Shown here: positions 14,569-59,810 of the stretch, in pieces | How the letters are laid out: every line of letters begins with the position of its first letter | Position numbering within the stretch: position 1 is the stretch's first letter | Position numbers and translations under genes: made by a program | The notes under the pieces: model-generated | The model's input: only the letters and a program-made list of their open reading frames with translations | Databases searched by the model: none | What the model was told of the DNA's origin: nothing | From: Pseudomonadota bacterium | GTDB lineage: Bacteria; Pseudomonadota; Gammaproteobacteria; Steroidobacterales; Steroidobacteraceae | Direction: 5' to 3' | NCBI GenBank assembly: GCA_018241505.1 | Contig: JAFEDS010000010.1 | Coordinates: forward strand, 496,001-560,000 | Length of the DNA stretch: 64,000 nucleotides

Positions 14569-14645
14569 TGGCGCGCCCGGAGAGATTCGAACTCCCGACC
14601 CTCAGGTTCGAAGCCTGATGCTCTATCCAACTGAGCTACGGGCGC
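14569..14645 (-). tRNA. tRNA-Arg (anticodon UCG)
   Basis: Complete cloverleaf on the minus strand. The acceptor stem GCGCCCG/CGGGCGC is perfect, the D-arm is GCTC..GAGC, the anticodon arm is TCAGG-CTTCGAA-CCTGA giving anticodon TCG, and the T-loop is TTCGAAT. The discriminator G (14572) is followed by an encoded CCA (14571-14569). Confidence 0.96.
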
Positions 14646-24655: not shown

Positions 24656-25054
24656 ATGAAATTGTTTCTTGCCATGGCGTCGACTGCCGTTCTGTCGGCT
24701 GGAACGGCCTACGCGGACTGCAGCTACCCGGCCCCCCCGGATCATCTTCCCGATGGCAATACCGCAACGCTTCAGGAGATGGTCACGGCGCAGAAGGCCG
24801 TCAAGGAGTACGACAAGGCCATCAACGCCTACGTCGCCTGCATCCAGCTCGAGCGCGACGACGCTGTCAGCAAGTTGGCAGTGAAGCCCGGTGAAACACC
24901 CACAGCCGAGCAGAAGAAGGCTATCGAGGACCGGCAGCGCGTCGAAATCCAGAAGCACAATGCCGCCATCGATCAGCTCCAGAGTATTGCCGATCGGTTC
25001 AACGAGCAGGTCAAGGTCTACAAGGCGAAGAACGCCGATAAGCCGAAGAGTTGA
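24656..25054 (+). CDS. Small exported protein, unknown function
   Basis: A 132-residue protein with a signal peptide (MKLFLAMASTAVLSAGTAYA), an early CSYPAPP segment and a mostly helical, charged remainder with a single further Cys (YVACIQLE). It is likely periplasmic and coiled-coil-like in its second half. I recognise no family. ATG 24656 is preferred over the in-frame upstream ATG-like codon at 24647. moeA starts 8 bases after its stop, so they may share a transcript. Confidence 0.65.
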   Translation: MKLFLAMASTAVLSAGTAYADCSYPAPPDHLPDGNTATLQEMVTAQKAVKEYDKAINAYVACIQLERDDAVSKLAVKPGETPTAEQKKAIEDRQRVEIQKHNAAIDQLQSIADRFNEQVKVYKAKNADKPKS

Positions 25055-25061
25055 TGGGACG

Positions 25062-26261
25062 GTGTTGAATCCCGCGCAGGCAGATGAGTTGATTGGGCAG
25101 CACCTGACGTGTCTGCCGATCGAGTCATTGCCGCTTGCGCAATGTGCCGGCGCGGTGTTGCGGGAGAACATCTACGCCGAGCGGGATGCGCCCCCGTTCG
25201 ACCGGGTTGCAATGGATGGTATCGCTGTTGACAGCGCGGTGCTCCAACACGGTAACCGGCGACTAAGGATCCAGGCGACGCAGGCGGCAGGCGATCCACC
25301 GCTGTCGCTTGCTGCGCAAACCGGTTGCATTGAAGTGATGACGGGCGCAGTCGTTCCGGGCGGCTGCGACTGTGTCATACCGGTTGAACAAATCACCGTG
25401 CGCGGCAATGAAGCCGAGGTGAGCTCCGACGCACCGGTCGAGCAATGGCAGAACGTGCACCGCCGCGGCGCTGACACTCGTCAGGGGGCCTTGTTGTTGT
25501 CGGCTGGCGGAAGGCTGCGTGCACCTGAAATTGCAATCGCCGCTTCCGCCGGCATGGCGCGCATTCGCGTCAGCAGCCAGCCTATGTTGGCTGTCATCTC
25601 AACAGGCAACGAGTTGGTCGAGCCCGGAGATGCCATCCTGCCGCATCAAATCCGTCGCTCGAATGCGTATGCCATTGTCGCGGCTCTGCGCAGGCACGGG
25701 TTCCAACGCGTGGCCGACGATCATCTGCACGATGATGTGCCCGAGCTTCGGCGGCGGCTGAAGTTTCACCTGGAAACCCACGACGTGCTCGTGCTCACCG
25801 GTGGCGTGTCGATGGGCAAACTCGACTTCGTACCCCGAGTGCTCGATGAGCTCGGCGTCCAAACCGTCTTCCACAAGGTGGCCCAGCGGCCGGGCAAGCC
25901 CATGTGGTTCGGTGTCGCGAGTTCCGGAGCGACCGTTTTCGCCCTTCCAGGGAACCCGGTCTCAACGTGCGTGTGCTTGTCACGGTATGTCCTGCCGGCG
26001 CTGTTCACGGCGATGGGCCAGGATCCGGTTCCCGCTGAGAAAATGGCTCTCGGTGGCGATGTGTCCAATACCACCGGTCTCACCTTGTTCATGCCGATCC
26101 GCGTCGAAGTCGACGACTGGGGGCGCGCTTGGGCTATGCCCCGCCCCACAAACAGCTCGGGCGACTTCACGGCCCTGGCCGGAACGGACGGTTTTGTGGA
26201 GCTACCGCCCGGGCCGAACCAATATCCGAAGGGATTCGTGACGCGACTGCACCGCTGGTAA
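25062..26261 (+). CDS. moeA: Molybdopterin molybdenumtransferase
   Basis: A 399-residue MoeA, which inserts molybdate into adenylated molybdopterin. Typical segments are APPFDRVAMDGIAV near the N-terminus, VISTGNELVEPGD, LTGGVSMGKLDF, KVAQRPGKPMWFG and LPGNPVSTCV, followed by the small C-terminal domain. The start is GTG 25062, eight bases after the previous stop; longer frames run backward through the upstream gene. No MogA/MoaB partner is present in the window. It opens a run of molybdenum cofactor genes ending at 31910. Confidence 0.94.
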   Translation: MLNPAQADELIGQHLTCLPIESLPLAQCAGAVLRENIYAERDAPPFDRVAMDGIAVDSAVLQHGNRRLRIQATQAAGDPPLSLAAQTGCIEVMTGAVVPGGCDCVIPVEQITVRGNEAEVSSDAPVEQWQNVHRRGADTRQGALLLSAGGRLRAPEIAIAASAGMARIRVSSQPMLAVISTGNELVEPGDAILPHQIRRSNAYAIVAALRRHGFQRVADDHLHDDVPELRRRLKFHLETHDVLVLTGGVSMGKLDFVPRVLDELGVQTVFHKVAQRPGKPMWFGVASSGATVFALPGNPVSTCVCLSRYVLPALFTAMGQDPVPAEKMALGGDVSNTTGLTLFMPIRVEVDDWGRAWAMPRPTNSSGDFTALAGTDGFVELPPGPNQYPKGFVTRLHRW

Positions 26262-26485: not shown

Positions 26486-27541
26486 ATGGCCAAATCCGAC
26501 GTCGTCGTTCCGCTCAGCAAATTGAACAGCCCGCGGGACACCCTCGCCCGGCCGGTGCGCGACCTGCGCATCTCCGTTATGGATCGCTGCAATTTCCGAT
26601 GCCCCTATTGCATGCCGCGCGAGAAGTATCACGAGCGGTACAAATTCCTCGGCTCCAATCAACGCCTGTCCTTTGACGAAATCGTTCGCCTCTCGCGCCT
26701 GTTCGTGAAGCTAGGCGTCCGAAAGCTTCGCCTGACCGGTGGTGAGCCCCTGCTACGCGCAAACCTCTCCGACCTCATCGGCGACCTCACGGACATCCCC
26801 GGCGTCGACGACGTCGCTCTGACAACGAACGGTGTGCTGCTCTCGCGCTACGCCGCGGAACTCAAGGCCGCCGGGCTCAAGCGGATCACCGTCAGTCTCG
26901 ACAGCTTGGACCCGGAAGTATTCGCACACATGAGCGGTGGCTTCGGGGGGCTGAACGATGTACTCGACGGGATCGAGCACGCACGTAGTGCGGGTCTCGA
27001 TCCGATCAAGGTAAACGCCGTCATTCAGCGCGGTGTGAACGACCACACCGCTCTCGACCTCGTCGAACGCTTCCGCGGAACTGGAGTCATCGTGCGCTTC
27101 ATTGAGTACATGGATGTCGGCAATCGAAACGAGTGGAAACCCGACGTCGTTGTACCCTCAAAGGAATTGATGGCACGCATATCCGAGCGCTGGCCGCTCC
27201 AGCCAGTCGAACGCGAGTATCGTGGCGAAGTTGCGGAGCGTTATCGCTTCGTCGACGGTATGGGAGAAGTTGGATTTATTTCATCGGTCACGCAGCCATT
27301 CTGCGGTGACTGTTCCCGAGCGCGTTTGTCTTCGGACGGCGTCGTCTACACGTGCCTGTTCGCAAACAATGGCACGAGTCTGCGCGATTCTCTGCGCGGC
27401 GGCGCCAGCGACGACGAGCTTCTCGCGACAATTGGCAACATCTGGTTGGGCCGCAGCGACCGGTACAGCGAGCTTCGCGCCGAATTGCGGGAGAAGCCCG
27501 GCGATCATCACAAAGTTGAAATGTTTTACATTGGCGGGTGA
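26486..27541 (+). CDS. moaA: GTP 3',8-cyclase (MoaA)
   Basis: A 351-residue radical-SAM enzyme for the first step of molybdenum cofactor synthesis, GTP to 3',8-cyclo-GTP. The N-terminal cluster motif is CNFRCPYC, the C-terminal cluster cysteines are in [13 protein letters not shown] and VVYTCLF, and the protein ends in the functional diglycine [14 protein letters not shown] matches the SAM-binding core. moaC follows one base after its stop. Confidence 0.96.
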
Positions 27542-27542
27542 C

Positions 27543-28073
27543 GTGAGCAGGACCTCTAACAATCGAATCGCAGCCAGGCGCGAGGCATCGTCTTCCGCAG
27601 GCCTCACTCACCTGGATGCCAACAATCGCCCAACCATGGTTGACGTCGGCGCGAAGGAAGTGACACGCAGGGTGGCCACTGCCGAAGCGCGCGTACGTTT
27701 CCCCGCAAACGTCGCGGCGGCGCTACGCAGAAGCGGCCATCGCACCAAGAAAGGCCCTGTCTTCGACACGGCGATTGTCTCCGGCGTCATGGCGGCGAAA
27801 CGCACCCATGACCTCATTCCGTTTTGCCATCCGCTGCCACTCGACAATTGTTCGATTGAAATCGACGCTGCGCGCAACGGCGAGATCGTCATCCGCTGCC
27901 AGGTTTCGGTTCATCATCGCACTGGCGTCGAAATGGAAGCCCTGACGGGCGCGTCTGTTGCCGCCCTGACTATCTACGACATGTGCAAAGCACTGTCGCA
28001 CGACATCGAGATCACGAGCGTCCGCCTGGTCGAAAAGACGGGTGGCAAACGCGACTTCAAGCGCAAGGCATAG
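27543..28073 (+). CDS. moaC: Cyclic pyranopterin monophosphate synthase
   Basis: A 176-residue MoaC, which rearranges 3',8-cyclo-GTP to cyclic pyranopterin monophosphate. Conserved segments are [37 protein letters not shown] (catalytic His), [11 protein letters not shown] and YDMCKA. Start GTG 27543 lies one base after the moaA TGA, giving a short N-terminal extension; an internal start near residue 35 would also fit the family core. The next gene begins 8 bases after its stop. Confidence 0.95.
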
Positions 28074-28080
28074 TGCATTC

Positions 28081-29034
28081 ATGAACGCTTCAACAGTTAC
28101 CCGCGGTCGTCCAATTTATGCGCTCGTCCTCGCTGGCGGCCGCAGCAAACGTATGCAGCGCGATAAGGCTGTGTTGGAGTACCACGGTCGCTCACAACTC
28201 GAGTGGGCCGTTTCGTTTGTGCAGCCGCACGTGCAGCGGGTTTTCGTGTCTGTTCGTCCTGATCAGACAGACGATCCGGCTCGTGCGCGCTTCGACCAGA
28301 TCGTCGATGCACACCAGAACCTCGGTCCAATCGCAGGCATCATGGCTGCGCAGGCGAAGTATCCCGACGTCGCTTGGCTCGTCCTTGCATGCGATCTCCC
28401 TTTTCTGGACGAAGGCACCCTCAACACGTTGATTGCCGCCCGGCAGCCGCAACGTATTGCGACCGCCTTTCGTTCGAGTCATGACGTGCTTCCTGAGCCT
28501 CTTTGTGCGATTTATGAGCCTGAGAGTCGCGAGGCCATTCTCGCGCACGTCGCCAGCGGCAAGAATTGCCCGCGTAAATTTCTGCTGAATTCAGACGTGC
28601 ACTTGTTGGATGAGCCCAACCCGCACGCGCTGGACAATGTAAACACGCCGGAAGAGTACGGGTCGGCAATTGCGGCGTTGAGCCCAACCGAAATCCCGGG
28701 CGCAACAAATGTCGACGCGGCCACGGGCCGGGTCCACGTCGGCGCGGCGCCCGGCTCCCACACCGCGCCGAAACGCGCTAGCCACCTCACCGACAAGCGC
28801 ATCAAGGTCCAGTACTACGCCATCCTGCGCGAGCAAGCCGGCCGCAGCGATGAGTCCGTTGTGACGGGCGCTGACACCCCGCGCGATCTCTACATCGAGT
28901 TGAAGTCACGCTACCCGTTCTCCCTCGCACCGGAAATGCTGCGTGTGGCGGTCAACGCCGAATTCGGCGAATGGTCACAGCGACTTGCGGACGGCGATTC
29001 CGTTGTCTTCATCCCGCCGGTCGCCGGTGGCTGA
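28081..29034 (+). CDS. MobA-MoaD fusion
   Basis: A 317-residue fusion. Residues about 11-200 are a MobA-type nucleotidyltransferase (LAGGRSKRMQRDKA, metal Asp in ACDLPFLD, closing LDNVNTPEEY) that would attach GMP to molybdopterin. Residues about 201-238 are a flexible linker. Residues 240-317 are a ubiquitin-like MoaD (IKVQYYAILREQAG, then VVFIPPVAGG) with its free C-terminal Gly-Gly, which becomes the thiocarboxylate sulfur carrier. Both parts look intact. The gene is followed after 13 bases by the MoaE-MoeB-rhodanese fusion, its expected partner. In most bacteria mobA and moaD are separate. Confidence 0.9.
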   Translation: MNASTVTRGRPIYALVLAGGRSKRMQRDKAVLEYHGRSQLEWAVSFVQPHVQRVFVSVRPDQTDDPARARFDQIVDAHQNLGPIAGIMAAQAKYPDVAWLVLACDLPFLDEGTLNTLIAARQPQRIATAFRSSHDVLPEPLCAIYEPESREAILAHVASGKNCPRKFLLNSDVHLLDEPNPHALDNVNTPEEYGSAIAALSPTEIPGATNVDAATGRVHVGAAPGSHTAPKRASHLTDKRIKVQYYAILREQAGRSDESVVTGADTPRDLYIELKSRYPFSLAPEMLRVAVNAEFGEWSQRLADGDSVVFIPPVAGG

Positions 29035-29047
29035 CGCAGACAGCCCC

Positions 29048-30931
29048 ATGACTACATTCAGTTTCACACGTGACAGGATCGACGAGAATGAGCTCCGCAA
29101 GCAGTTGCTCGATCCAACCGCAGGCGGCTACTCATCGTTCGAAGGCTGGGTGCGCAATCACAACGAAGGACTCCCTGTCCGCCACCTGGAATACGAAGCG
29201 TTTGAGCCGCTGGCCATCAAAGAGGGCGAACGTATCGTCGCGGAAGCGATCAAGCGCTTCGGTGTCGAACACGCCGCGTGCGTACACCGCATCGGAGACC
29301 TCGCCATAGGAGAGATGGCCGTCTGGGTAGGCGTCAGCGCGCGCCACCGGGCGGAAGCGTTCCTCGCATGTCGATACATTATCGACGAAGTCAAACATCG
29401 AGTGCCCATTTGGAAGAAAGAGCACTATGTAAATGGCGACTCCGGCTGGGTCAATTGCGAGCGCTGCGCCGCACCTACAACCACGGACGTGCCCCACGCT
29501 CACGCGCCACACATTCACGCGCCCCACGCTCACGTGCCCCACGCGCCCGGCACCGCCCACACCACAAACGCCCACGGCTCGCTGAACCACGACACACACA
29601 CGTCGGGCGCCGCCCAAACGCATGACACCCACGCCCCACACGCCCACAACCACGATTCGCACCACCACGCCCACGCACCTGACACTCACCGCGCGCCCAT
29701 CGACAGAGGCGCCACCCGCCAGGCCCAAACTCCTTCGGCCGCCGCGTCGCTAGCGACAACTCACGCCCGACTGGCCGCCCCCGTCTCCGACTACTCCCGG
29801 CAAATGGCGCTAAAGGAAGTCGGCGCCGCCGGCCAGGCAAAACTGCGCGCCAGCCGAGTACTCGTGATCGGCTGCGGCGGTCTCGGCGTCCCTGTTATCA
29901 GCTACCTGGCCGGCGCCGGCATAGGCCGCCTTGGCCTCGTCGACAGCGACCACCTCGAGCCCTCCAACCTGCATCGTCAGACGATGTATGCCCTCGCCGA
30001 CGTCGGCAAACTCAAGGCCGAGCTCGCCGCCGAGCGCGTGCGCGAACTCAACCCCGATGTCGACGTCCGCGCCTACAAGCTTCGCTTGGACGCCCTCAAC
30101 GCGCCAGACCTGATCGCTCAGCACGATCTCGTGATCGATTGCACAGACAACTTCTCCACGAAGTTCCTCCTCAATGACTACTGTGTGCAACTCCGGAAAC
30201 CCGTGGTTTTCGCCAGCGTCTACCAATACGAGGGACAACTGCAGATCGTTCAACCAGACTCCGCATGCTTGCGCTGCGTGTGGCCCGAGGCCACGCGCGA
30301 CGGCATTGTCGGAAACTGCTCAGAAGCCGGCGTGCTGGGGCCCGTGCCCGGAATCTTCGGCGGTCTGCAAGCGTTTGAAGCGATGAAGCTGCTGCTCAAC
30401 CTGCCCGGCCAGCTCAAAGACGAGCTGCTCGTGCTGGACCTCCTGACGCTAACAACATCGAGGGTGCGGACCAAACGCGCGCATGCATGCCCCGAGCACG
30501 CGACCTCACGCGCCACCGCCGCCCAAGCGGCCGCAGTAGCACGCACCAACGCGGCCAGAGACGCCGGCCCTGAAGGCGCCAACGCGGCCGCGAACACCGG
30601 CCCTCAAAGCGCCAACACACCAACAAACCCCCTGGAGCTGTCATTCGACACCCTCGACCAAGCCCACGAAGCTGGCTTCGACATCGTCGACATCCGCGAG
30701 CCATATGAACTGCGGGAAACCCCAACGCCGTCCGCGCACACCCGAAATTTGCCCATGGCGGAGCTCCTCCACGGCCAGCCATCGTTCAAACCCACGCGTA
30801 AGACGGTGCTCGTCTGCGCGACCGGCCGGCGCAGTCTCGCCGCAACACAGGAACTGCGCGAAAACGGATTTGCCGATGTCTTCTCCTTGCGCGGCGGGGT
30901 GAGAGGGCTGCTGGCGCGCCAGTTCACTTGA
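29048..30931 (+). CDS. MoaE / His-rich linker / MoeB / rhodanese trifunctional fusion
   Basis: A 627-residue protein in four parts. Residues 1-140 are MoaE (molybdopterin synthase large subunit) with the catalytic RVPIWKKEHY lysines and a terminal CERC. Residues about 141-245 are a linker with 21 His between 150 and 214. Residues about 246-480 are a MoeB-type E1: P-loop GCGGLG, NLHRQT, DCTDN, first zinc pair CLRC (407/410) and GNCSEAGVLGP. Then an Ala-rich linker leads to a rhodanese domain (about 528-627) with active-site Cys590 in CATGRRS. The second MoeB CxxC is replaced by CPEH (481-484). The protein would adenylate and sulfurate MoaD and then use it. Start ATG 29048; GTG 29027 is possible. 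Confidence 0.9.
   Translation: MTTFSFTRDRIDENELRKQLLDPTAGGYSSFEGWVRNHNEGLPVRHLEYEAFEPLAIKEGERIVAEAIKRFGVEHAACVHRIGDLAIGEMAVWVGVSARHRAEAFLACRYIIDEVKHRVPIWKKEHYVNGDSGWVNCERCAAPTTTDVPHAHAPHIHAPHAHVPHAPGTAHTTNAHGSLNHDTHTSGAAQTHDTHAPHAHNHDSHHHAHAPDTHRAPIDRGATRQAQTPSAAASLATTHARLAAPVSDYSRQMALKEVGAAGQAKLRASRVLVIGCGGLGVPVISYLAGAGIGRLGLVDSDHLEPSNLHRQTMYALADVGKLKAELAAERVRELNPDVDVRAYKLRLDALNAPDLIAQHDLVIDCTDNFSTKFLLNDYCVQLRKPVVFASVYQYEGQLQIVQPDSACLRCVWPEATRDGIVGNCSEAGVLGPVPGIFGGLQAFEAMKLLLNLPGQLKDELLVLDLLTLTTSRVRTKRAHACPEHATSRATAAQAAAVARTNAARDAGPEGANAAANTGPQSANTPTNPLELSFDTLDQAHEAGFDIVDIREPYELRETPTPSAHTRNLPMAELLHGQPSFKPTRKTVLVCATGRRSLAATQELRENGFADVFSLRGGVRGLLARQFT
29495..29689 (+). repeat. Degenerate tandem repeats encoding a His-rich linker
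   Basis: Short CAC/CAT-rich units such as CCCCACGCTCACG recur with variation and encode HAPH, HAH and HDTH motifs inside the MoaE-MoeB gene. They give 21 histidines in 65 residues. The pattern suggests growth by local duplication and a possible metal-binding stretch. Confidence 0.75.
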
Positions 30932-48547: not shown

Positions 48548-50440
<1,893 letters not shown>

Positions 50441-52438
50441 GTGCGGCGGACCGTGAGCTCTCCCAGGGTCCGGGTTGTCATTGAAAACATTACGCCGTGC
50501 ATCGACTGCGGGCGTTTCCCCATCAAGCGCACCAGCGGCGAGCCTGTTGTAGTCGAGGCTGACGTCTTTACCGACGGTCACGACCAGGTAGCCGCCGTCA
50601 TGATGTACCGGCATGACAGCGCTACAGAATGGCACCGAGCCCCCATGAAGGCGGTCGGCAACGATCGCTGGCGCGCCGAATTTACCGTGCAACAGTTGGG
50701 CAGCTACCAGTATTCGGTGTGCGCCTGGGTCGATCACCTCGATTCCTGGCGCCGCGGCATCCGGAAGAAATACGAAGCGCGCCAGGATATTCACGTCGAT
50801 CTGAAAACCGGCGCGCTCATCGCGGAAAATATGGCCGAGCGGGCTCACGGTACCGACGCGCAACGATTGCGTGAATGGGCGGCTGCGATTGTCGACACCC
50901 GCCGCGACCTGGAAGCGCGGATGGCCCTGATCCAGACCGAATCCATCCGCGAATTGGAGCTGCGCTATCCCGATCCGGACATTGTGCTTCATTGGGACAC
51001 ACCGCTCGAAGTCGAGGTGGATCGCGAGCGGGCCCGCTTTTCAACCTGGTACGAGATGTTTCCCCGCTCCGCCGCGGCCGCGCCGGGACAACACGGCACT
51101 TTCGCCGATGTCCAGAAGCTGTTGCCGTATGTCGCGTCGATGGGCTTCGACGTCCTGTACCTGCCGCCCATTCACCCGATCGGCACAACCGAGCGCAAAG
51201 GTCCCAACAACAATCCGCAAGCATCCGCGGGCGATCCGGGCAGCCCGTGGGCCATCGGTGGCACCGAGGGAGGACACAAATCGATCCATCCCGAGTTGGG
51301 CACCCTGGAGGATTTCAAACAGTTGATTGCCAAGGCCGGCGAGCTCGGGATGGAAATCGCGATGGATATCGCTTTTCAAACGACTCCCGACCACCCCTAT
51401 GTTCGCGAGCACCGTGAGTGGTTTTTAGAGCGCCCCGACGGCACGATCCAATACGCCGAGAACCCCCCGAAAAAGTACCAGGACATCTACCCGTTCCACT
51501 TCGAGTCGAACGCCGGCGAAGCTCTGGCGACGGAGCTGCGCACCGTCATTGAATACTGGATCTCCCAGGGGATCCGGATTTTCCGCGTCGACAATCCCCA
51601 CACCAAACCTTTTCCCTTCTGGGAAGGGCTGATTCGGGAAATCCGCCGCCTGCGGCCGGATGTCATTTTCCTGGCCGAGGCCTTTACCCGTCCGAAGGTG
51701 ATGTACCGGCTGGCGAAGTTGGGTTTCACCCAGTCGTACAACTACTTTCCGTGGCGCAATACCAAGCAGGAGCTGCTGGAGTATTTCACGGAGCTGAGCC
51801 GGCCACCGGTCAGTGACTTTTTTCGTGCCAACCTCTGGCCCAACACGCCCGACATTCTGCCCGAGTACCTGCAGTACGGCGGCCGCCCCGGCTTCATGAT
51901 CCGGCTGGTGCTCGCCGCGACGCTCGGCGCCAGTTACGGCATTTATGGTCCCCCGTTTGAGCTCATGGACGGGCGGGCGGTGGAAGCGGGCAAGGAGGAA
52001 TACCTCGACTCGGAAAAATACCAGATCCGGCAGTGGAGCCGGGACAATCCGGCGAGCCTGCGCGAATTCATTGCGCTCGTGAATCGCATCCGCCGCGACA
52101 ATGCACCCTTGCAGAGCGACCGCGGCCTTAAGTTTCACGCCACGGACAATGACAACCTGGTGGCGTACAGCAAAACCCGGGACAACGGCGACGCGGTCCT
52201 GGTCGTCGTGAATGTCGATCCGCACCATACCCAGTCCGGGTGGGTGCAACTCGATCTGCTCACGTTGCACCTCCCGGACAGCGGCACATTCCAGGTTCAC
52301 GACCTGCTCTCCGGCGCGCGATTCATTTGGCAGGGGCCGCGCAATTTCGTGTCGCTGGATCCCGGCCGCGCGCCCGCACATATCTTCCGCATAAGAACCC
52401 GGGTAAGGTCCGAAAGAGACTTCGACTACTTCCTGTAG
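50441..52438 (+). CDS. glgE: Alpha-1,4-glucan:maltose-1-phosphate maltosyltransferase
   Basis: A 665-residue GH13_3 enzyme that adds maltosyl units from maltose-1-phosphate to alpha-glucan. Visible are the family start ITPCIDCGRFPIKR, WYEMFPRS, the nucleophile Asp384 in FRVDNPHTKPFPFW and acid Glu413 in FLAEAFTRPKVM. It has an N-terminal beta domain (about 1-110) and a C-terminal beta domain. Start GTG 50441 adjoins the glgB stop; GTG 50453 is an alternative. Its substrate is supplied by the next gene, TreS-maltokinase. Confidence 0.96.
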   Translation: MRRTVSSPRVRVVIENITPCIDCGRFPIKRTSGEPVVVEADVFTDGHDQVAAVMMYRHDSATEWHRAPMKAVGNDRWRAEFTVQQLGSYQYSVCAWVDHLDSWRRGIRKKYEARQDIHVDLKTGALIAENMAERAHGTDAQRLREWAAAIVDTRRDLEARMALIQTESIRELELRYPDPDIVLHWDTPLEVEVDRERARFSTWYEMFPRSAAAAPGQHGTFADVQKLLPYVASMGFDVLYLPPIHPIGTTERKGPNNNPQASAGDPGSPWAIGGTEGGHKSIHPELGTLEDFKQLIAKAGELGMEIAMDIAFQTTPDHPYVREHREWFLERPDGTIQYAENPPKKYQDIYPFHFESNAGEALATELRTVIEYWISQGIRIFRVDNPHTKPFPFWEGLIREIRRLRPDVIFLAEAFTRPKVMYRLAKLGFTQSYNYFPWRNTKQELLEYFTELSRPPVSDFFRANLWPNTPDILPEYLQYGGRPGFMIRLVLAATLGASYGIYGPPFELMDGRAVEAGKEEYLDSEKYQIRQWSRDNPASLREFIALVNRIRRDNAPLQSDRGLKFHATDNDNLVAYSKTRDNGDAVLVVVNVDPHHTQSGWVQLDLLTLHLPDSGTFQVHDLLSGARFIWQGPRNFVSLDPGRAPAHIFRIRTRVRSERDFDYFL

Positions 52439-52516
52439 CACCGCACCACGGCGAGCATGGGCACAGACCTTGCTTTATGGATGGGTGGCAGGCGCTTTTT
52501 TGAGAGAGGATGACCA

Positions 52517-55500
52517 ATGAACGCACAGGTGGATCAGCAGCCTGCAAGTGATCCTCTTTGGTACAAGGACGCTGTCATCTACGAGGTGCACGTCCGTGCT
52601 TTTTTCGACGGCAACAACGATGGCATAGGCGACTTCGCCGGCCTCACCCAGAAGCTGGATTACATCCAGGAGCTCGGGGTGAATACCATCTGGCTGCTGC
52701 CTTTCTATCCGTCGCCCGGCAAGGATGACGGCTACGACATTTCCGACTATCACAACATCCACACGCAATACGGAACGCGCGAGGACTTCAGGATGTTCGT
52801 GGCCGAGGCGCACCGCCGCGGCCTGCGGGTCATCACCGAGCTGGTCATCAACCACACCTCGGATCAACATCCCTGGTTTCAGATTGCCCGGCGCTCCGCG
52901 CCCGGCTCACCCAAGCGCAACTACTACGTCTGGAGCGACAACCCCGACAAGTACTCGGAGACGCGCATCATCTTCCGCGATACCGAGATTTCCAACTGGG
53001 CATTGGACCCGGTCGCGAAAACGTACTACTGGCATCGCTTCTTCAGCCATCAGCCGGATCTGAACTTCGACAACCCGCACGTGGTGCGGGCCGTCATTCA
53101 CATCATGGAATACTGGCTCAACCAGGGTGTCGACGGACTGCGGCTGGACGCGATTCCGTATCTCATTGAACGGGACGGCACCAACAACGAGAACCTGCGC
53201 GAAACCCACGAGGTCATCAAGCGCATCCGCAAGGTCATCAACGATCGCTACGCGGACCGCATGCTGCTCGCCGAGGCAAACCAGTGGCCCGAAGACGTGC
53301 GCGACTATTTTGGCGAAGGCGACGAATGCCACATGGCCTATCACTTCCCGCTCATGCCGCGCATGTACATGGCCATCGCCCAGGAGGATCGCCACCCCAT
53401 TGTTGAGATCATGGAGCAGACGCCCGACATCCCGGACAACTGCCAATGGGCGATCTTCCTGCGCAACCACGACGAGCTCACGCTCGAAATGGTCACCAGC
53501 AAGGAACGCGACTACATGTACAAGATGTATGCCGCCGACCCCCGCGCCCGTTTGAATCTCGGCATCCGCCGGCGTCTCGCACCGCTGATGGAGAACGACC
53601 CCGAGCGGATCAAGCTCATGAACAGCCTGCTGCTGTCCATGCCAGGCGCGCCGATCATCTACTACGGCGACGAAATCGGCATGGGCGACAACTTCTTCCT
53701 GGGCGATCGCAACGGCGTGCGTACACCCATGCAATGGAGCCCGGACCGCAACGCGGGATTTTCGAGGGCCGATCCGCAGCAGTTGTTTCTGCCACCGATC
53801 ATGGACCCGATCTACGGGTTCGAGTCAGTGAATGTCGAGGCCCAGACTCGCGACCGTTCATCGCTGCTCAACTGGATGAAACGCATGTTGCAGGTTCGCA
53901 AGGAATCGCAGGCCTTCGGCCGCGGCACCCTGCGCTTCATCCGTCCGGGTAATCGCAAAGTGCTCGTCTATCTGCGCGAGTATGATGGCGACACGATCCT
54001 GTGTGTCTGTAACCTCGCCCGCTCCGCCCAGCCGGTTGAGATCGATCTCGCCGAATTCAAGGGCACCGTTCCCATCGAGTTGATGGGACGCACGCCATTC
54101 CCGCCGGTCGGGGACCTGCCCTACCTGCTGACCTTGCAGGGCTACAGTTTCTACTGGTTCCGCCTGAGCAAGGAAGCGCAGCCGCCCGTCTGGCACGACG
54201 AGCGCATGTTGCGCGAAGACCTGCCTTTCCTCGTGTTGTTTGATGGCTGGACCAGCTTCTTTCCGGAGCGGGTGGCCAACTGGCGCCTGGGCTTGGCAAC
54301 CAAGCTGCGCGAGCAGCTCGAAACCGTCGTCGCGCCGAAGTACATTGCGTCTCAGCGTTGGTACGCCGGGAAGGGCGCGCCCATCAAACGCGCCAACCTG
54401 GGCGACAACGGCGAATGGGAAACCGAGCACGGCCGCTGGCTCGCCGGCGTGTTTGAAGTGGAGAGCGACTCGAGCAAGGTGCTCTATTTCCTGCCGTTCG
54501 CCATTGCCTACGAAGATACGGACGAGAGCCGCTGGCAGAAGCTGCAGCAAGGCGCGATCGCGCGCGTCCGGCGCCAGGCCACTGTTGGAGTCCTGGCCGA
54601 CGCCACGGCGGATGAGAACTTCTGCCGTTCCGTCGTAGAAGGCATCGGCACGGGAACTGACATCAAGACCGAGCGCGGCAGCGTACGGCTGTCTCCGACC
54701 CAGGTCTATGCGCAATTGCGCGGCGATCCGGCCTCTCCATTGCATATCAGCCAGACAGCCGGCCAGAGCAGCAACACCACGGTCCGGGTCGGCGAGATGT
54801 TCTTCCTGAAGTTCTATCGCCGCCTGCAACCGGGTATCAACCCGGAGCTGGAAATCGGGCGCTATCTCACCGAGGTGGTGCGCTTTCCCAACATTGTACC
54901 GGTTGCCGGCGCGGCGGAGTACCGTAACCCGGATGGCCGGGTCGTGACGCTGGCCCTGCTACAGGCCTTTGTCATGAACCAGGGCGATGGCTGGGACTAC
55001 ACCGTCAACTACCTCGTCAGGTTCCTCGAAGAGCGGCGCACGGACGTGGCCATGGCCGAGGATGCGCACGGCGCCTATCTCGAGTTGGTCAAAACACTGG
55101 CAACGCGCACTGCCGAATTGCACCGGGCACTGGCGACACCGACTTCGGACGAAGCGTTCTCACCCGAGCCGATCCGGCCTCAGGACGTGTCAGGTTGGGT
55201 GCAGAATGTGCGGGCCGAAGCGGAAAAGACGCTCGACCTGTTGCAGGAGCGCTGCGCGCAGCTACCGCAAGCCATCATCCCCGACGCCGAGTTCGTACTG
55301 TCACGGCGCGACATCCTGTTGAAGCGGATCAGCGAAGCGGTACCCCACCCGCCGCGGGGCCTGAGGACGCGCCATCACGGCGACTATCACCTGGGTCAGG
55401 TGCTCCTGAAGCGCAACGACTTCATTATCGTGGACTTCGAAGGTGAGCCGGACCGCCCCCTGGCCGAGCGCCGGGTCAAGCACTCACCGCTGCGTGATGT

Positions 55501-55813
55501 CGCGGGAATGCTGCGTTCATTCACGTATGCCCGACGCACAGCGATGCAACGTTGCACCGTACAATCGGCGGAGGATTGCGGGCGCTGGGACGTGTTGGTC
55601 GACAAATGGGAGAGCGATGTCAGGAGTACCTTCATTTCGACCTACGACTCCATCGCGCGCCCGGCCGGACTCTATCGATCTCTGGATGACATGCTGCCCC
55701 TGTTGAGGTTGTTTGAGGTCGAGAAGACCCTGTATGAAACGCGCTACGAGCTGGGCAATCGCCCGGATTGGACCCCGATCCCGCTGCGTGCGCTCATCGC
55801 CTTCACGCAGTGA
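52517..55813 (+). CDS. treS: Trehalose synthase-maltokinase fusion
   Basis: A 1098-residue fusion. Residues about 1-560 are TreS (GH13_16), which interconverts trehalose and maltose: nucleophile Asp211 (GLRLDAIPYL), acid Glu253 (LAEANQWP) and Asp319 (FLRNHDELTLEMV). Residues about 590-1098 are a Pep2-type maltokinase (APKYIASQRWYAGKG ... HHGDYHLGQV with Asp956, then VDFEGEP) that makes maltose-1-phosphate for GlgE. Such fusions are known in pseudomonads and xanthomonads. A GAGAGG ribosome site precedes ATG 52517. The 78-base gap before it is the only sizeable break in the operon. Confidence 0.96.
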   Translation: MNAQVDQQPASDPLWYKDAVIYEVHVRAFFDGNNDGIGDFAGLTQKLDYIQELGVNTIWLLPFYPSPGKDDGYDISDYHNIHTQYGTREDFRMFVAEAHRRGLRVITELVINHTSDQHPWFQIARRSAPGSPKRNYYVWSDNPDKYSETRIIFRDTEISNWALDPVAKTYYWHRFFSHQPDLNFDNPHVVRAVIHIMEYWLNQGVDGLRLDAIPYLIERDGTNNENLRETHEVIKRIRKVINDRYADRMLLAEANQWPEDVRDYFGEGDECHMAYHFPLMPRMYMAIAQEDRHPIVEIMEQTPDIPDNCQWAIFLRNHDELTLEMVTSKERDYMYKMYAADPRARLNLGIRRRLAPLMENDPERIKLMNSLLLSMPGAPIIYYGDEIGMGDNFFLGDRNGVRTPMQWSPDRNAGFSRADPQQLFLPPIMDPIYGFESVNVEAQTRDRSSLLNWMKRMLQVRKESQAFGRGTLRFIRPGNRKVLVYLREYDGDTILCVCNLARSAQPVEIDLAEFKGTVPIELMGRTPFPPVGDLPYLLTLQGYSFYWFRLSKEAQPPVWHDERMLREDLPFLVLFDGWTSFFPERVANWRLGLATKLREQLETVVAPKYIASQRWYAGKGAPIKRANLGDNGEWETEHGRWLAGVFEVESDSSKVLYFLPFAIAYEDTDESRWQKLQQGAIARVRRQATVGVLADATADENFCRSVVEGIGTGTDIKTERGSVRLSPTQVYAQLRGDPASPLHISQTAGQSSNTTVRVGEMFFLKFYRRLQPGINPELEIGRYLTEVVRFPNIVPVAGAAEYRNPDGRVVTLALLQAFVMNQGDGWDYTVNYLVRFLEERRTDVAMAEDAHGAYLELVKTLATRTAELHRALATPTSDEAFSPEPIRPQDVSGWVQNVRAEAEKTLDLLQERCAQLPQAIIPDAEFVLSRRDILLKRISEAVPHPPRGLRTRHHGDYHLGQVLLKRNDFIIVDFEGEPDRPLAERRVKHSPLRDVAGMLRSFTYARRTAMQRCTVQSAEDCGRWDVLVDKWESDVRSTFISTYDSIARPAGLYRSLDDMLPLLRLFEVEKTLYETRYELGNRPDWTPIPLRALIAFTQ

Positions 55814-57966
55814 TGGATAGGCAGGTCATGGCTGAGACACGGCCCATCCGGGCCGTGTGGCCGGGACAACCTTATCCGCGCGGCGCGAGCTGGGACGGTG
55901 AAGGCGTCAACTTCTCGGTGTTTTCGGCCAATGCCGACAAAGTCGAGCTGTGCATCTTCGATCCGAGCGGCCGGCACGAGGTGCAACGCATCGAGTTGCG
56001 CGAACGCACGGATGAAATCTGGCACTCCTACCTGCCCGAAGCCCGCCCCGGCCTGTTGTACGGCTACCGGGTTCACGGACCTTACGCCCCGGAGAAAGGT
56101 CACCGCTTCAACCCCAACAAACTGCTGATCGAGCCCTACGCCAAACACCTCCAGGGCAACGTGACATGGAGCGATGCACACTTCGGCTACCGGGTCGGAC
56201 ACAGCAAGGCGGACCTGTCCTTCGACAAACGCGACAGCGCGCCCGGAACTCCCAAGAGCCGCGTCATCGATTCCGCTTTTACCTGGGGCGACGACAAGGC
56301 ACCCCGGGTGCCCTGGCACGACACGGTCATCTATGAGGCGCACGTGCGCGGCATGACCATGCGTCATCCTGAAGTACCGCCGCAACTACGCGGCACGTAC
56401 GCGGGACTTGCCACGGCCCCTGTTATCGAGCACCTGCAACGGCTCGGAATCACTACCCTCGAGCTGATGCCGGTACACGCCTTTTTCGATGACCGTCACC
56501 TGCTGGAGAAGGGCCTGCGCAACTACTGGGGCTACAACACCATCGGCTTCTTCGCGCCGGAGTTGCGATTTTCCGCAACGGGACGGGTGAGCGAATTCAA
56601 GACCATGGTGAAAACCCTGCATTCAGCGGGAATCGAGGTCATCCTCGACGTGGTCTACAACCACACTGCCGAAGGAAATCAGCTCGGGCCCACATTATCG
56701 TTCCGTGGGCTCGACAACGCGGCGTACTACCGGTTGGTGCCGGACGATCCGCGTTACTACATGGATTTCACCGGCACGGGTAACACGCTCAACCTGCAAC
56801 ATCCCCGGGTTCTGCAACTGCTCATGGACAGCCTCCGATACTGGGTATTGGAAATGCATGTCGACGGATTCCGCTTCGATCTGGCATCGGCGCTGGCCCG
56901 TGAGCTGTTCGATGTCGACCGGCTGGGTTCGTTCTTCGACACCATCGGCCAGGACCCGGTCCTTTCGCAGGTGAAGTTGATTGCCGAACCCTGGGATATC
57001 GGCAGCGGCGGTTACCAGGTGGGAAACTTTCCGCCGGGATGGAATGAGTGGAATGACAAGTATCGCGACACCATGCGCGCGTACTGGAAGGGGGACGGGG
57101 GCCTGATCGGAGATTTTGCCCGCCGCTTCACGGGTTCATCCGACCTGTACGAAGCAAGTGGCCGCAAGCCCCACGCCTCCATCAACTTCATCACGGCACA
57201 CGATGGCTTCACCCTCGAGGACCTCGTCAGCTACAACGAGAAGCACAACGAGGGCAACGGCGAAGACAGCCGGGATGGCAGCAATGACAACCGCTCGTGG
57301 AACTGTGGAGTGGAAGGTCCCGCGGCCGATCCTGCCATCAGGACGCTCCGCCGCCGGCAAAAGCGCAATCTCCTGGCCACCCTGCTGCTCTCCCAGGGAG
57401 TGCCCATGATGTTGGCCGGTGATGAGCTGGGGCGGACCCAAAACGGCAACAATAATGCCTATTGTCAGGATAACGAAACGTCATGGCTGAACTGGGACCT
57501 CGACGAAGAGCAGCAGCGCTTCCTGGAGTTCGTGGCCCATATGATCGATTTCCGGCGTCGCCATGCCGTCTTCAGCCGGCGCCGCTTCCTGCGCGCCAAT
57601 GCCATCAATGTGGAGGGGCTCAAGGAAATAGTCTGGCTCACGCCTGAAGGGACTGAAATGACCGAGACCGAGTGGAATATGCATTTCGCACGATGTTTGG
57701 GCGTGTATCTTGCGGGTGCTGCCATCGAGCGTAGCGACAAGCGCGGACGGCCTGTGACCGACAACAACTTCATGCTGCTGTTCAATGCCCATCACGAGCA
57801 GATCCCCTTTGTCCTGCCTCAGTTCCTGACTGACAAGGCGTGGTGGACCGTGCTCGACACCTCCGCGGAAACCGTGCCTTTCGAGCAGCGCCGGCACGAA
57901 GCGGGTGCGCTTTATCCACTCCAGGGCCGGTCGCTGGCACTGCTGCGGGAGACGGCATACCGGTGA
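55813..57966 (+). CDS. glgX: Glycogen debranching enzyme GlgX
   Basis: A 717-residue GH13_11 isoamylase-type enzyme that hydrolyses alpha-1,6 branches. An N-terminal CBM48 (GVNFSVFSANADKVELCIFD, cut before its end) precedes the barrel with Asp356 (GFRFDLASAL), Glu392 (IAEPWDIG) and Asp464 (TAHDGFTLEDL). The ATG at 55813 shares a base with the treS stop (TGATG), so re-initiation is likely; MAETRP at 55828 has a better GGCAGG site. It supplies linear chains to TreY. Confidence 0.95.
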   Translation: MDRQVMAETRPIRAVWPGQPYPRGASWDGEGVNFSVFSANADKVELCIFDPSGRHEVQRIELRERTDEIWHSYLPEARPGLLYGYRVHGPYAPEKGHRFNPNKLLIEPYAKHLQGNVTWSDAHFGYRVGHSKADLSFDKRDSAPGTPKSRVIDSAFTWGDDKAPRVPWHDTVIYEAHVRGMTMRHPEVPPQLRGTYAGLATAPVIEHLQRLGITTLELMPVHAFFDDRHLLEKGLRNYWGYNTIGFFAPELRFSATGRVSEFKTMVKTLHSAGIEVILDVVYNHTAEGNQLGPTLSFRGLDNAAYYRLVPDDPRYYMDFTGTGNTLNLQHPRVLQLLMDSLRYWVLEMHVDGFRFDLASALARELFDVDRLGSFFDTIGQDPVLSQVKLIAEPWDIGSGGYQVGNFPPGWNEWNDKYRDTMRAYWKGDGGLIGDFARRFTGSSDLYEASGRKPHASINFITAHDGFTLEDLVSYNEKHNEGNGEDSRDGSNDNRSWNCGVEGPAADPAIRTLRRRQKRNLLATLLLSQGVPMMLAGDELGRTQNGNNNAYCQDNETSWLNWDLDEEQQRFLEFVAHMIDFRRRHAVFSRRRFLRANAINVEGLKEIVWLTPEGTEMTETEWNMHFARCLGVYLAGAAIERSDKRGRPVTDNNFMLLFNAHHEQIPFVLPQFLTDKAWWTVLDTSAETVPFEQRRHEAGALYPLQGRSLALLRETAYR

Positions 57967-59810
57967 TCAAGCGACGCCACAGCATGCCCTTCGGGGCTGA
58001 GCTCACGGACGATGGGCGTGTGCGATTTCGACTGTGGGCGCCCGGAGCTCGCAGAGTGGATCTCACTTTGGACGACGGCCGCGGTGTTGCCCAGATCGTT
58101 CCGATGACACCGTGCGGCGACGGCTTCTACGAAATCGTCACGGACCAGGCCCGCGCGGGCTCTCTGTACCGCTACCGGATCGACGATGAAAACGAAGTCC
58201 CTGACCCGGCTTCACGCTTCAACCCCCAGGACGTCCACGGCCCGAGCCAGGTGGTGGATCCTACCGATTTCGACTGGACCGATCGCGACTGGCACAGCCG
58301 GCCGTGGCACGAGGCCGTCATCTACGAGCTGCACGTCGGAACATTCAGTCCCGAGGGTACGTTTGCCGGCGTCCAGGCCAAGCTGGATCACCTTGTTGAG
58401 TTAGGTGTGACGGTCATCGAGCTGATGCCCATCGCGGATTTTCCAGGCAAGCGCGGCTGGGGCTATGACGGCGTGCTGCTGTTCGCACCGGAGTCCGCGT
58501 ACGGCACGCCGAACGACCTGAAGTCGCTCGTCAATGCGGCGCATGCGCGCGGCATCGCGGTCATGCTCGATGTCGTGTACAACCATTTCGGCCCCGAGGG
58601 CAACTACCTCGGAATGTATGCGTCCCAGTTTTTTACGGAGCGGCATCACACGCCCTGGGGCGCGGCCATCAACTTTGATGGCAGCCATAGTCGACCGGTG
58701 CGTGACTTTTACATCCACAATACCCTGTATTGGCTCGAGGAATTCCACCTCGACGGGCTGCGCTTCGACGCGGTTCACGCCATTATCGACGACAGCCGCA
58801 AACACATCATGACCGAGATTGCGGAAACCGCCCGGGCCTGCGCCGGCGGCGATCGCAATATCTATCTCGTGTTGGAAAACGGCGCGAACCAGGCGCGCTT
58901 TCTCGGCTCGCCGGGCCGCAGCAACAAGTTCGATGCGCAGTGGGATGATGACGTCCACCACTGCCTGCACACCATACTGACCGGCGAAAAGGACGGCTAC
59001 TACGCGGACTACGTCGAGCAACCCCACGCGAAACTGTGCCGCAGCCTCGCCGAAGGATTTGTTTACCAGGGCGAGCACTCCCCATTCGAAAATCACGCGC
59101 GCGGCGAGCCCAGTGCGCACCTGCCGCCCACCGCGTTCGTCATCTTCTTGCAGAACCACGATCAGATTGGCAATCGCGCCCTCGGCGAGCGGCTCGGTCA
59201 CATCGTGAAGAACAATGAGGCACTGCGGGCCGCAGCCGCCGTGTTGCTGCTCGCGCCCGCGCCACCCATGCTGTTCATGGGTGAGGAATGGAATGCGCCG
59301 CAGCCGTTCCCCTACTTCTGCGACTTCGAGCAGGAATTGGCCACGAAGGTGCGCGAAGGCCGCCGGCGCGAATTCAAACACTTCGAGCGCTTCCGCGATC
59401 CGGCCCACCCCGACAGCATCCCCGATCCGACCATCGCCTCCACGATGCAATCGGCCCGCCTGGACTGGAGCAGAACCACGGTTGCCGGGCACGAGGACTG
59501 GCTGGACCTGTATCGGCGCCTCTTGATGATCCGGCAACGGGAAATCATGCCGTTGATTCCCGACATTCGCTTCGGAGCCTGCAGCAAGCTGGAAGCCGGC
59601 GCGGCCTTCGCGGTCGATTGGGCGCTGTCGGAAGGCTCGGTGCTGCATCTCATCGCCAACCTGGCCGATGAGCCGGCGCGCCTGGTGGGCCGCACGGCCG
59701 GCCGCCTGATCTATGCAACTCATCCCAACATCCGGCAGACGGTCACTAAAAACGAGCTGGCTCCCTGGAGTGTGACCTGGTTGCTGGAGCGAGGCACCCT
59801 TGGAGGCTGA
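57963..59810 (+). CDS. treZ: Malto-oligosyltrehalose trehalohydrolase
   Basis: A 615-residue GH13_10 enzyme that releases trehalose from maltooligosyl-trehalose made by TreY. An N-terminal E-set domain (RFRLWAPGARRVDLTLD) and the barrel residues Asp269 (GLRFDAVHAI), Glu305 (VLENGANQ) and Asp400 (LQNHDQIGNR) are present. Start GTG 57963 overlaps the glgX stop (GTGA). Its end overlaps treY by 11 bases, a coupling that fits their joint action. Confidence 0.95.
   Translation: MIKRRHSMPFGAELTDDGRVRFRLWAPGARRVDLTLDDGRGVAQIVPMTPCGDGFYEIVTDQARAGSLYRYRIDDENEVPDPASRFNPQDVHGPSQVVDPTDFDWTDRDWHSRPWHEAVIYELHVGTFSPEGTFAGVQAKLDHLVELGVTVIELMPIADFPGKRGWGYDGVLLFAPESAYGTPNDLKSLVNAAHARGIAVMLDVVYNHFGPEGNYLGMYASQFFTERHHTPWGAAINFDGSHSRPVRDFYIHNTLYWLEEFHLDGLRFDAVHAIIDDSRKHIMTEIAETARACAGGDRNIYLVLENGANQARFLGSPGRSNKFDAQWDDDVHHCLHTILTGEKDGYYADYVEQPHAKLCRSLAEGFVYQGEHSPFENHARGEPSAHLPPTAFVIFLQNHDQIGNRALGERLGHIVKNNEALRAAAAVLLLAPAPPMLFMGEEWNAPQPFPYFCDFEQELATKVREGRRREFKHFERFRDPAHPDSIPDPTIASTMQSARLDWSRTTVAGHEDWLDLYRRLLMIRQREIMPLIPDIRFGACSKLEAGAAFAVDWALSEGSVLHLIANLADEPARLVGRTAGRLIYATHPNIRQTVTKNELAPWSVTWLLERGTLGG

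Follow-up and report, generated by a model that had tools for sequence, protein, structure and literature searches.

The 64,000-nucleotide stretch of DNA analysed here (the window), which comes from a Pseudomonadota bacterium of the family Steroidobacteraceae (assembly GCA_018241505.1, contig JAFEDS010000010.1, positions 496,001 to 560,000 of the forward strand), carries two adjacent genes for molybdopterin synthesis, each encoding a fusion protein, namely MobA-MoaD and MoaE-linker-MoeB-rhodanese. The locus very probably specifies the ordinary molybdopterin pathway, with neighbouring genes fused in operon order, i.e., moeA, moaA, moaC, mobA+moaD and moaE+moeB-rhodanese. The arrangement recurs, and as a variant of known enzymes it is apparently undescribed. 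What surprises most at the locus is a recurrent cysteine- and histidine-rich (Cys/His-rich) segment of MoaE, which forms the linker of the second protein and had been passed over when the sequence was first read (the first-pass annotation).

Domain organisation of the two fusion proteins

The MobA-MoaD frame (28081..29034, plus strand as for all features of the pair; 317 residues) opens with an ATG, and 13 bases separate its stop from position 29048, where the 627-residue frame of MoaE, Cys/His-rich linker, MoeB and rhodanese begins (29048..30931); frames, lengths and gap all agree with the first-pass annotation. In the first protein, Pfam matches over cut-off delimit a MobA-like nucleotidyltransferase domain (NTP_transf_3, residues 14-168, 28120..28584; 110.7 bits against a cut-off of 27), which carries the LAGGxSxRM and DLP motifs of MobA, and a MoaD domain (ThiS, residues 243-317, 28807..29031; 53.2 bits against 22.5), which ends PPVAGG. 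Sequence, Pfam, alignment and structural model concur in making the latter a ThiS-family beta-grasp domain with a free C-terminal Gly-Gly; across an alignment of 28 MobA-MoaD proteins, neither this terminal Gly-Gly nor any of the GG-S-RM-DKA positions varies.

In the second protein, three domains score over their Pfam cut-offs, namely (i) MoaE (PF02391, residues 7-118; 121.4 bits against 23.4), (ii) ThiF, i.e., the MoeB/ThiF-type adenylyltransferase (PF00899, residues 249-482, 29792..30493; 262.6 bits), and (iii) Rhodanese (PF00581, residues 536-620, 30653..30907; 33.1 bits against 22.2). The MoaE module as a whole spans residues 1-141 (29048..29470) and closes with a CxxC motif, Cys137-Glu-Arg-Cys140 (29456..29467), behind which lies a His-rich segment (residues 143-243, 29474..29776) with 22 His among 101 residues. 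In an alignment of 23 fusion proteins, comprising the window protein and 22 relatives, R36, H100, R101, K116 and K123 of MoaE are invariant, and so are the GxGGLG loop and C424 of MoeB as well as C590 of the rhodanese, which sits in CATGRRS. The invariant lysines, arginine and histidine of MoaE are presumably the catalytic ones of the family.

AlphaFold models MobA-MoaD as two folded modules, with a mean predicted local distance difference test score (pLDDT) of 87.4, and the long protein as folded modules (mean pLDDT 76.0, predicted template modelling score 0.48) interrupted by a predicted disordered stretch with pLDDT below 50 over residues 138-245, the relative placement of the modules being unreliable in both models. 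When the long chain was submitted to Foldseek, ThiF, Uba4, MoeB and other E1-type enzymes dominated, and MoaE was absent among the 50 matches listed. The window protein and its relative L035 have two long linkers each, and a 33-base repeat of 2.2 units (30546-30616) lies inside the MoeB-rhodanese linker.

Gene content of the host genome

Over cut-off, the host genome (7,882,944 bases in 46 contigs, 93.9% complete, 5.67% contamination) holds one match each for MoaE, the ThiS/MoaD family and the ThiF family, besides one weak ThiF match below cut-off, and these sole matches are the two fusion genes themselves. At this completeness, no free-standing moaD, moaE or moeB turned up, so that the intact separate genes which the first-pass annotation had named as a case against the fusions are not seen; the fusions must therefore act if molybdopterin is made in the host. 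Molybdenum enzymes are encoded too, PF00384 giving four matches and PF20256 15 matched pieces, and customers for the cofactor thus exist. Beyond the window copy, NTP_transf_3 gives two strong matches (109 and 99 bits). ThiG gives only a weak match, below cut-off. Of note, a second small molybdenum cluster (G000:C3:20256-24300) comprises a 423-residue PF00994 frame, a MobA-like match in a 317-residue frame and a PF00384 enzyme.

A comparable situation is met in other genomes, where the single MoaE match was a fusion-sized frame of 485-659 residues in 11 out of 11 cases, by title four Dyella, one of them complete, three Rhodanobacter and one each of Frateuria, Lysobacter, Acetobacteraceae and Pontiellaceae. 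In Dyella jiangningensis, for instance, the fused gene is the only MoaE match.

Proposed pathway and the points that weigh on it

All the parts of the sulfur relay are present with their conserved residues, and no second copy was found; the order in which they would act is that of the known families, where MoeB adenylates the MoaD tail, a rhodanese or desulfurase gives the sulfur and MoaE uses it (PMC3227635, PMC9370521). By analogy, the MoeB module would adenylate the free Gly-Gly of MobA-MoaD, the rhodanese module would hand over sulfur, probably from a cysteine desulfurase, and the thiocarboxylated MoaD would then dock on the MoaE module, which would make the dithiolene, with the long disordered linker possibly letting MoaD reach either module. 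Since the MoaD tail is free in MobA-MoaD, neither cleavage nor a protease is needed. The proposal of the first-pass annotation that the second protein can activate, sulfurate and use the MoaD tail of the first thus stands as plausible chemistry suggested by sequence, all parts being present and conserved and the tail being free.

Several observations weigh against this ordinary-pathway reading. Firstly, none of the NCBIfam equivalog cut-offs is reached, whether for MobA (TIGR02665, 89.6 bits, below 151.85), MoaD (TIGR01682, 51.1, below 66.15), MoaE (PRK10678, 83.8, below 175) or MoeB (TIGR02355, 184.7, below 376.55), nor is that of PRK08762 for MoeB-rhodanese (302.2, below 449); the protein names are therefore based on Pfam domains, on motifs and on the operon context, and the proteins are divergent family members. 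Secondly, the first CxxC of MoeB is present (residues 407 and 410) and the second putative zinc motif reads Cys481-x-x-His484, i.e., CxxH, in the window protein, as in several relatives, others having other spacings. The window MobA has a Gln in RMQRDKA in place of the Gly that is usual after RM, and Gln is common among its relatives in the 28-row alignment. This Gln and the CxxH are the two details that depart from the claim that each domain carries its active-site residues. Thirdly, at 93.9% completeness and 5.67% contamination a separate copy could be missing from the assembly. Fourthly, PF00994 matches two frames only, of 458 (the window moeA) and 423 residues, and so reveals no MogA/MoaB of its own in this genome of 93.9% completeness. 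Lastly, further ThiF-family proteins are present in the 11 genomes with a single, fusion-sized MoaE, so that the fused MoeB need not be the sole worker there.

Distribution of the fusions

The long protein was matched in 192 of the 196 genomes of the host's order, the rows listed being mostly matches to a single module each. At the level of the host family, for which 38 of the 39 genomes from the order search were sampled (G037 being left out), MoaE-MoeB-rhodanese occurs as one frame in 25 genomes and MobA-MoaD in 23; both fusions are found in 14, the former only in 11, the latter only in nine and neither in four. The two fusions assort independently and are therefore not a matched pair, contrary to what the first-pass annotation had proposed, and pairing as a rule was rejected on these counts.

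The same counts bear on the idea of a single channelling complex made up of both fusions, where MobA-MoaD would remain bound and molybdopterin would pass straight to MobA. The adjacent genes, the free MoaD tail and the position of MobA ahead of MoaD would suit such a complex, against which stand the independent assortment, the two additional strong MobA-like matches in the host and the textbook pathway, where the steps of MogA and MoeA come between those of MoaE and MobA; channelling thus appears quite unlikely. The suggestion that MobA, attached to MoaD, keeps the new pterin close is not forced by the gene content, given the two further MobA-like matches, and gene content gives no support to MobA taking over the pterin.

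Outside the family, the chain is carried by L031 and L034, from other families of the order, and is lacking in nine loci of such families (L135-L143) chosen as unfused, within a set of 20 comparison regions selected on that basis. A wider scan for relatives by two peptide patterns kept the best 80 of 587 loci, a set that leans to the fusion and to Cys because one pattern contains WVNCE; in this set, 64 loci have the whole MoaE-MoeB-rhodanese chain, two a partial one (L105 at a contig end, L114 with a broken frame) and 14 are without it. By title, the chain belongs to metagenome-assembled genomes (MAGs) of Steroidobacteraceae and Nevskiaceae, to Dyella, Rhodanobacter, Frateuria, Lysobacter and an Acetobacteraceae strain, and also to MAGs labelled Hydrogenedentota, Kiritimatiellales, Lentisphaerae, Krumholzibacteriia, Omnitrophota, Chlamydiae and others, labels that are possibly wrong through contamination. 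MobA-MoaD is a single frame in 24 of the 80, under the titles Gammaproteobacteria, (uncultured) proteobacterium, Proteobacteria, Pseudomonadota, Steroidobacteraceae or Nevskiaceae.

A draw from the phylum gave 140 genomes, 113 of them with MoaE, and MoaE-MoeB-rhodanese was found in none of the best-scoring 30 MoaE loci, which were read as such and are not a random set; beyond these 30, frames in G234 (581 residues) and G331 (502 residues) are long enough for it. All in all, MoaE-MoeB-rhodanese recurs in scattered lineages, is frequent in the host's family and is not the rule in the phylum. The remark that the full chain opposite MobA-MoaD was not familiar holds insofar as it is undescribed in the literature searchable here, and has to be tempered by the recurrence of the chain itself in the 64 loci.

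Origin of the MoaE-MoeB fusion

An artefactual joining of separate genes by sequencing or assembly error, raised in the first-pass annotation as a refuting case, is rejected as vanishingly improbable: the same chain is present in independent assemblies, including that of L035, which has 74% identity in the best segment and matches residues 1-624. Regarding the actual origin, gene order in unfused relatives is identical to that of the fused locus. In L028, the MoaE frame ends with TGA and the in-frame ATG of MoeB-rhodanese follows three bases on, so that the loss of one stop codon would join MoaE to MoeB-rhodanese.

A tree of 99 rows with MoaE and MoeB, built by a quick method, requires the MoaE-MoeB state to change five times and the MobA-MoaD state likewise five times; among these changes are label artefacts due to masked bases (L063), a frame break (L114) or a contig end (L036). 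Being unrooted, the tree does not tell gain from loss. Eight rows of identical MoaE (L038, L049, L053, L055, L060, L078, L089 and L101) are left out of it, and L033 is without MoaE. The state called adjacent, assigned to 15 of 121 rows, includes at least two that are not real splits, and the fused rows number 84 in the tree and 85 in the linker statistics below, L114 making the difference.

These data can be accounted for by neutral stop-codon losses without new function, an explanation that comes close to an even chance without quite reaching it. The shared gene order, the fused and split forms side by side in one family and the mere five changes of either state in the tree speak for it; against it can be set the occurrence of the fused form in many lineages and as sole MoaE match in 11 of 11 genomes, which shows that the fusion is tolerated rather than that it is useful.

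The Cys/His-rich segment of MoaE

MoaE of this group mostly ends GWVNCERCA, followed by a His-rich stretch. Counted from behind WV, the stretch of the 85 fused rows has median values of 29 residues and seven His (range 0-22), and a CxxC lies within the first nine residues behind WV in 62 of these 85 and in 34 of the 36 other rows. The Dyella/Rhodanobacter group lacks the second Cys but keeps one Cys and many His. The enrichment sets this linker apart from the other one: over 83 usable rows, the mean His fraction is 22% in the MoaE linker compared to 2% in the MoeB-rhodanese linker, the former being higher than the latter of the same protein in 79, equal in two and lower in two. Unfused MoaE of the host family has CxxC in 13 of 13 cases, followed in 11 of these by two or more His. 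As judged from sequence, the linker corresponds to the Cys/His-rich tail also carried by unfused MoaE of the group.

Concerning the cause of this composition, 86 of the 121 tails have at least 15 residues, and in these His makes up 26% in the coding frame, 2% in each other frame and 4% in nucleotide shuffles, with CAT accounting for 38% of the tail's His codons and for 39% of those in the MoaE domain; the His-rich tail thus appears to be selected at protein level. A 15-base DNA repeat of 3.9 units in the window linker shows that part of this copy grew by duplication. Frame and codon use speak against repeat slippage as the sole origin of the His content.

A similar segment occurs with another partner. 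Among the 30 phylum-draw loci, 14 (including L149, L150, L154 and L157), all from genomes outside the window genome's class according to the kinship column of the draw, show MoaE followed by CPGC plus a linker and then a further domain, identified as MoCF_biosynth (MogA/MoaB-like) by Pfam in L148, L149, L154 and L164 and by shared motif in the other ten; at least four His are found in 12 of these 14 linkers. Another 15 loci are classical MoaE, without CxxC and with 0-1 His, and so have no counterpart of the window motif, while L163, for which a masked frame was taken, is counted in neither class and contains the CPGC motif. The MoaE search did not select for the tail, as the Pfam match ends before it (at residue 118 of the window protein). 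No MoaE-MogA or MoaE-MoaB fusion was found described under those names in the open-access literature.

The linker may be a plain tether, or it may handle metal beside the dithiolene. In the latter case, the segment would be a putative metal-handling element of MoaE, binding Cu, Zn or Ni next to dithiolene formation, with proposed roles in protecting or metallating new molybdopterin or in buffering zinc for MoeB, a tentative proposal that we regard as somewhat doubtful. It would be consistent with the frame-specific His content and the similar CAT use in tail and MoaE domain, with the excess over the MoeB-rhodanese linker, with the retention of Cys and His in unfused MoaE of the host family and with the CxxC and linker that join MoaE to a further domain in the phylum draw. 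Copper on molybdopterin in Cnx1G was reportedly the subject of a 2004 paper by Kuper. Cofactor synthesis requires copper, according to PMC9228816. The proposal is weakened, however, by the variable length of the linker (8 to 107 residues), by the missing CxxC within the first nine residues in 23 of the 85 fused rows, including the Dyella/Rhodanobacter group, by the low His count of 35 of the 121 rows (fewer than four, and none in five), by the fused L027, L031 and L034, with 0-1 His in the linker, and by the partial growth of the window copy through duplication of its 15-base repeat.

A bolder version can be formulated, in which MoaE proteins of this kind would make up a distinct class with a C-terminal Cys/His-rich metal-handling segment at the dithiolene-forming site, a segment that in at least two lineages would serve as hinge to different next enzymes, i.e., MoeB-rhodanese here and a MogA/MoaB-like domain outside the class of the window genome, and that may be a source or a sink for a metal, for instance copper, on new molybdopterin. 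From the sequence pattern as it stands, this is unlikely.

Comparison with known systems

The closest known enzymes are MoeBR, MoeZR and MOCS3, which have the same order of MoeB and rhodanese and perform adenylation and sulfur transfer to a MoaD-type tail, MoeBR having a pair of CxxC motifs towards the end of its MoeB domain (PMC3227635). By comparison, the window chain adds MoaE in front through a Cys/His-rich linker and has CxxH instead of the second CxxC. The adenylyltransferase module finds some of its best matches, both in sequence and in fold, in the stand-alone ThiF and MoeB of E. coli (1zud, 1zfn, 1jw9), which, unlike the window chain, are without rhodanese or MoaE. MoaE of the E. coli type shares the MoaE domain and the catalytic lysines, whereas the 15 classical loci end without CxxC and with 0-1 His.

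Joining of the synthase parts themselves is another matter. A MoaD-MoaE fusion is said to exist in Deinococcus, with MoaD first. MoaX of Mycobacterium tuberculosis likewise has the synthase parts in one chain, but MoaD comes first and cleavage after its Gly-Gly is required (PMC4326299), while MoaD is last in its chain in the window and its tail is free. In Archaea, MoaD-MoeB, MoaD-MoeBR and MoaC-MoaE fusions represent other pairings of pathway neighbours, and neither MoaE-MoeB-rhodanese nor MobA-MoaD is listed in the accessible part of that source (PMC11237513); still other fusions are described in the available portion of PMC1779556. In the open-access literature, subscription papers being outside the search, no description was found of a MoaE-MoeB(-rhodanese) or MobA-MoaD fusion, nor of the Cys/His-rich MoaE segment, and the pair is to that extent not already widely described, a case that the first-pass annotation had listed as refuting it.

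Gene neighbourhood

Upstream of both fusions and on the same strand, a domain search identified moeA (24891..26261; MoeA_N, MoCF_biosynth and MoeA_C, the true start of this frame being probably internal), moaA (26486..27541; Radical_SAM and Mob_synth_C) and moaC (27636..28073 from the first matched residue, the true start lying just upstream; PF01967, 172.8 bits). Downstream, it found a tetratricopeptide repeat (TPR) protein frame, behind which lie two frames on the opposite strand, judged by eye to be proA and proB. Scans for promoters and terminators returned fewer sites than in shuffled sequence, and a plasmid search gave no record spanning 80% of the query in one place. Elsewhere in the window, Rfam places one tRNA gene at 14572-14645 on the minus strand, and over 48548-62718 alpha-amylase-family frames follow one another, one of them bearing a maltokinase cap; this run resembles a GlgE/trehalose-type glucan cluster.

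Meaning of the arrangement

If the ordinary-pathway reading is right, the MoaE-MoeB-rhodanese chain would naturally combine sulfurase and synthase of the dithiolene step in one polypeptide, whose MoaD partner, unlike that in MoaX, has a tail that needs no cleavage. As the fused gene is the sole MoaE match in named strains such as Dyella jiangningensis, its function is open to genetic testing. Because the Cys/His-rich segment is found next to two or more different fusion partners, its possible metal role close to the dithiolene can be tested directly and, should the unlikely notion of a distinct metal-handling MoaE class prove true, metal-bearing molybdopterin would gain a concrete, testable source.

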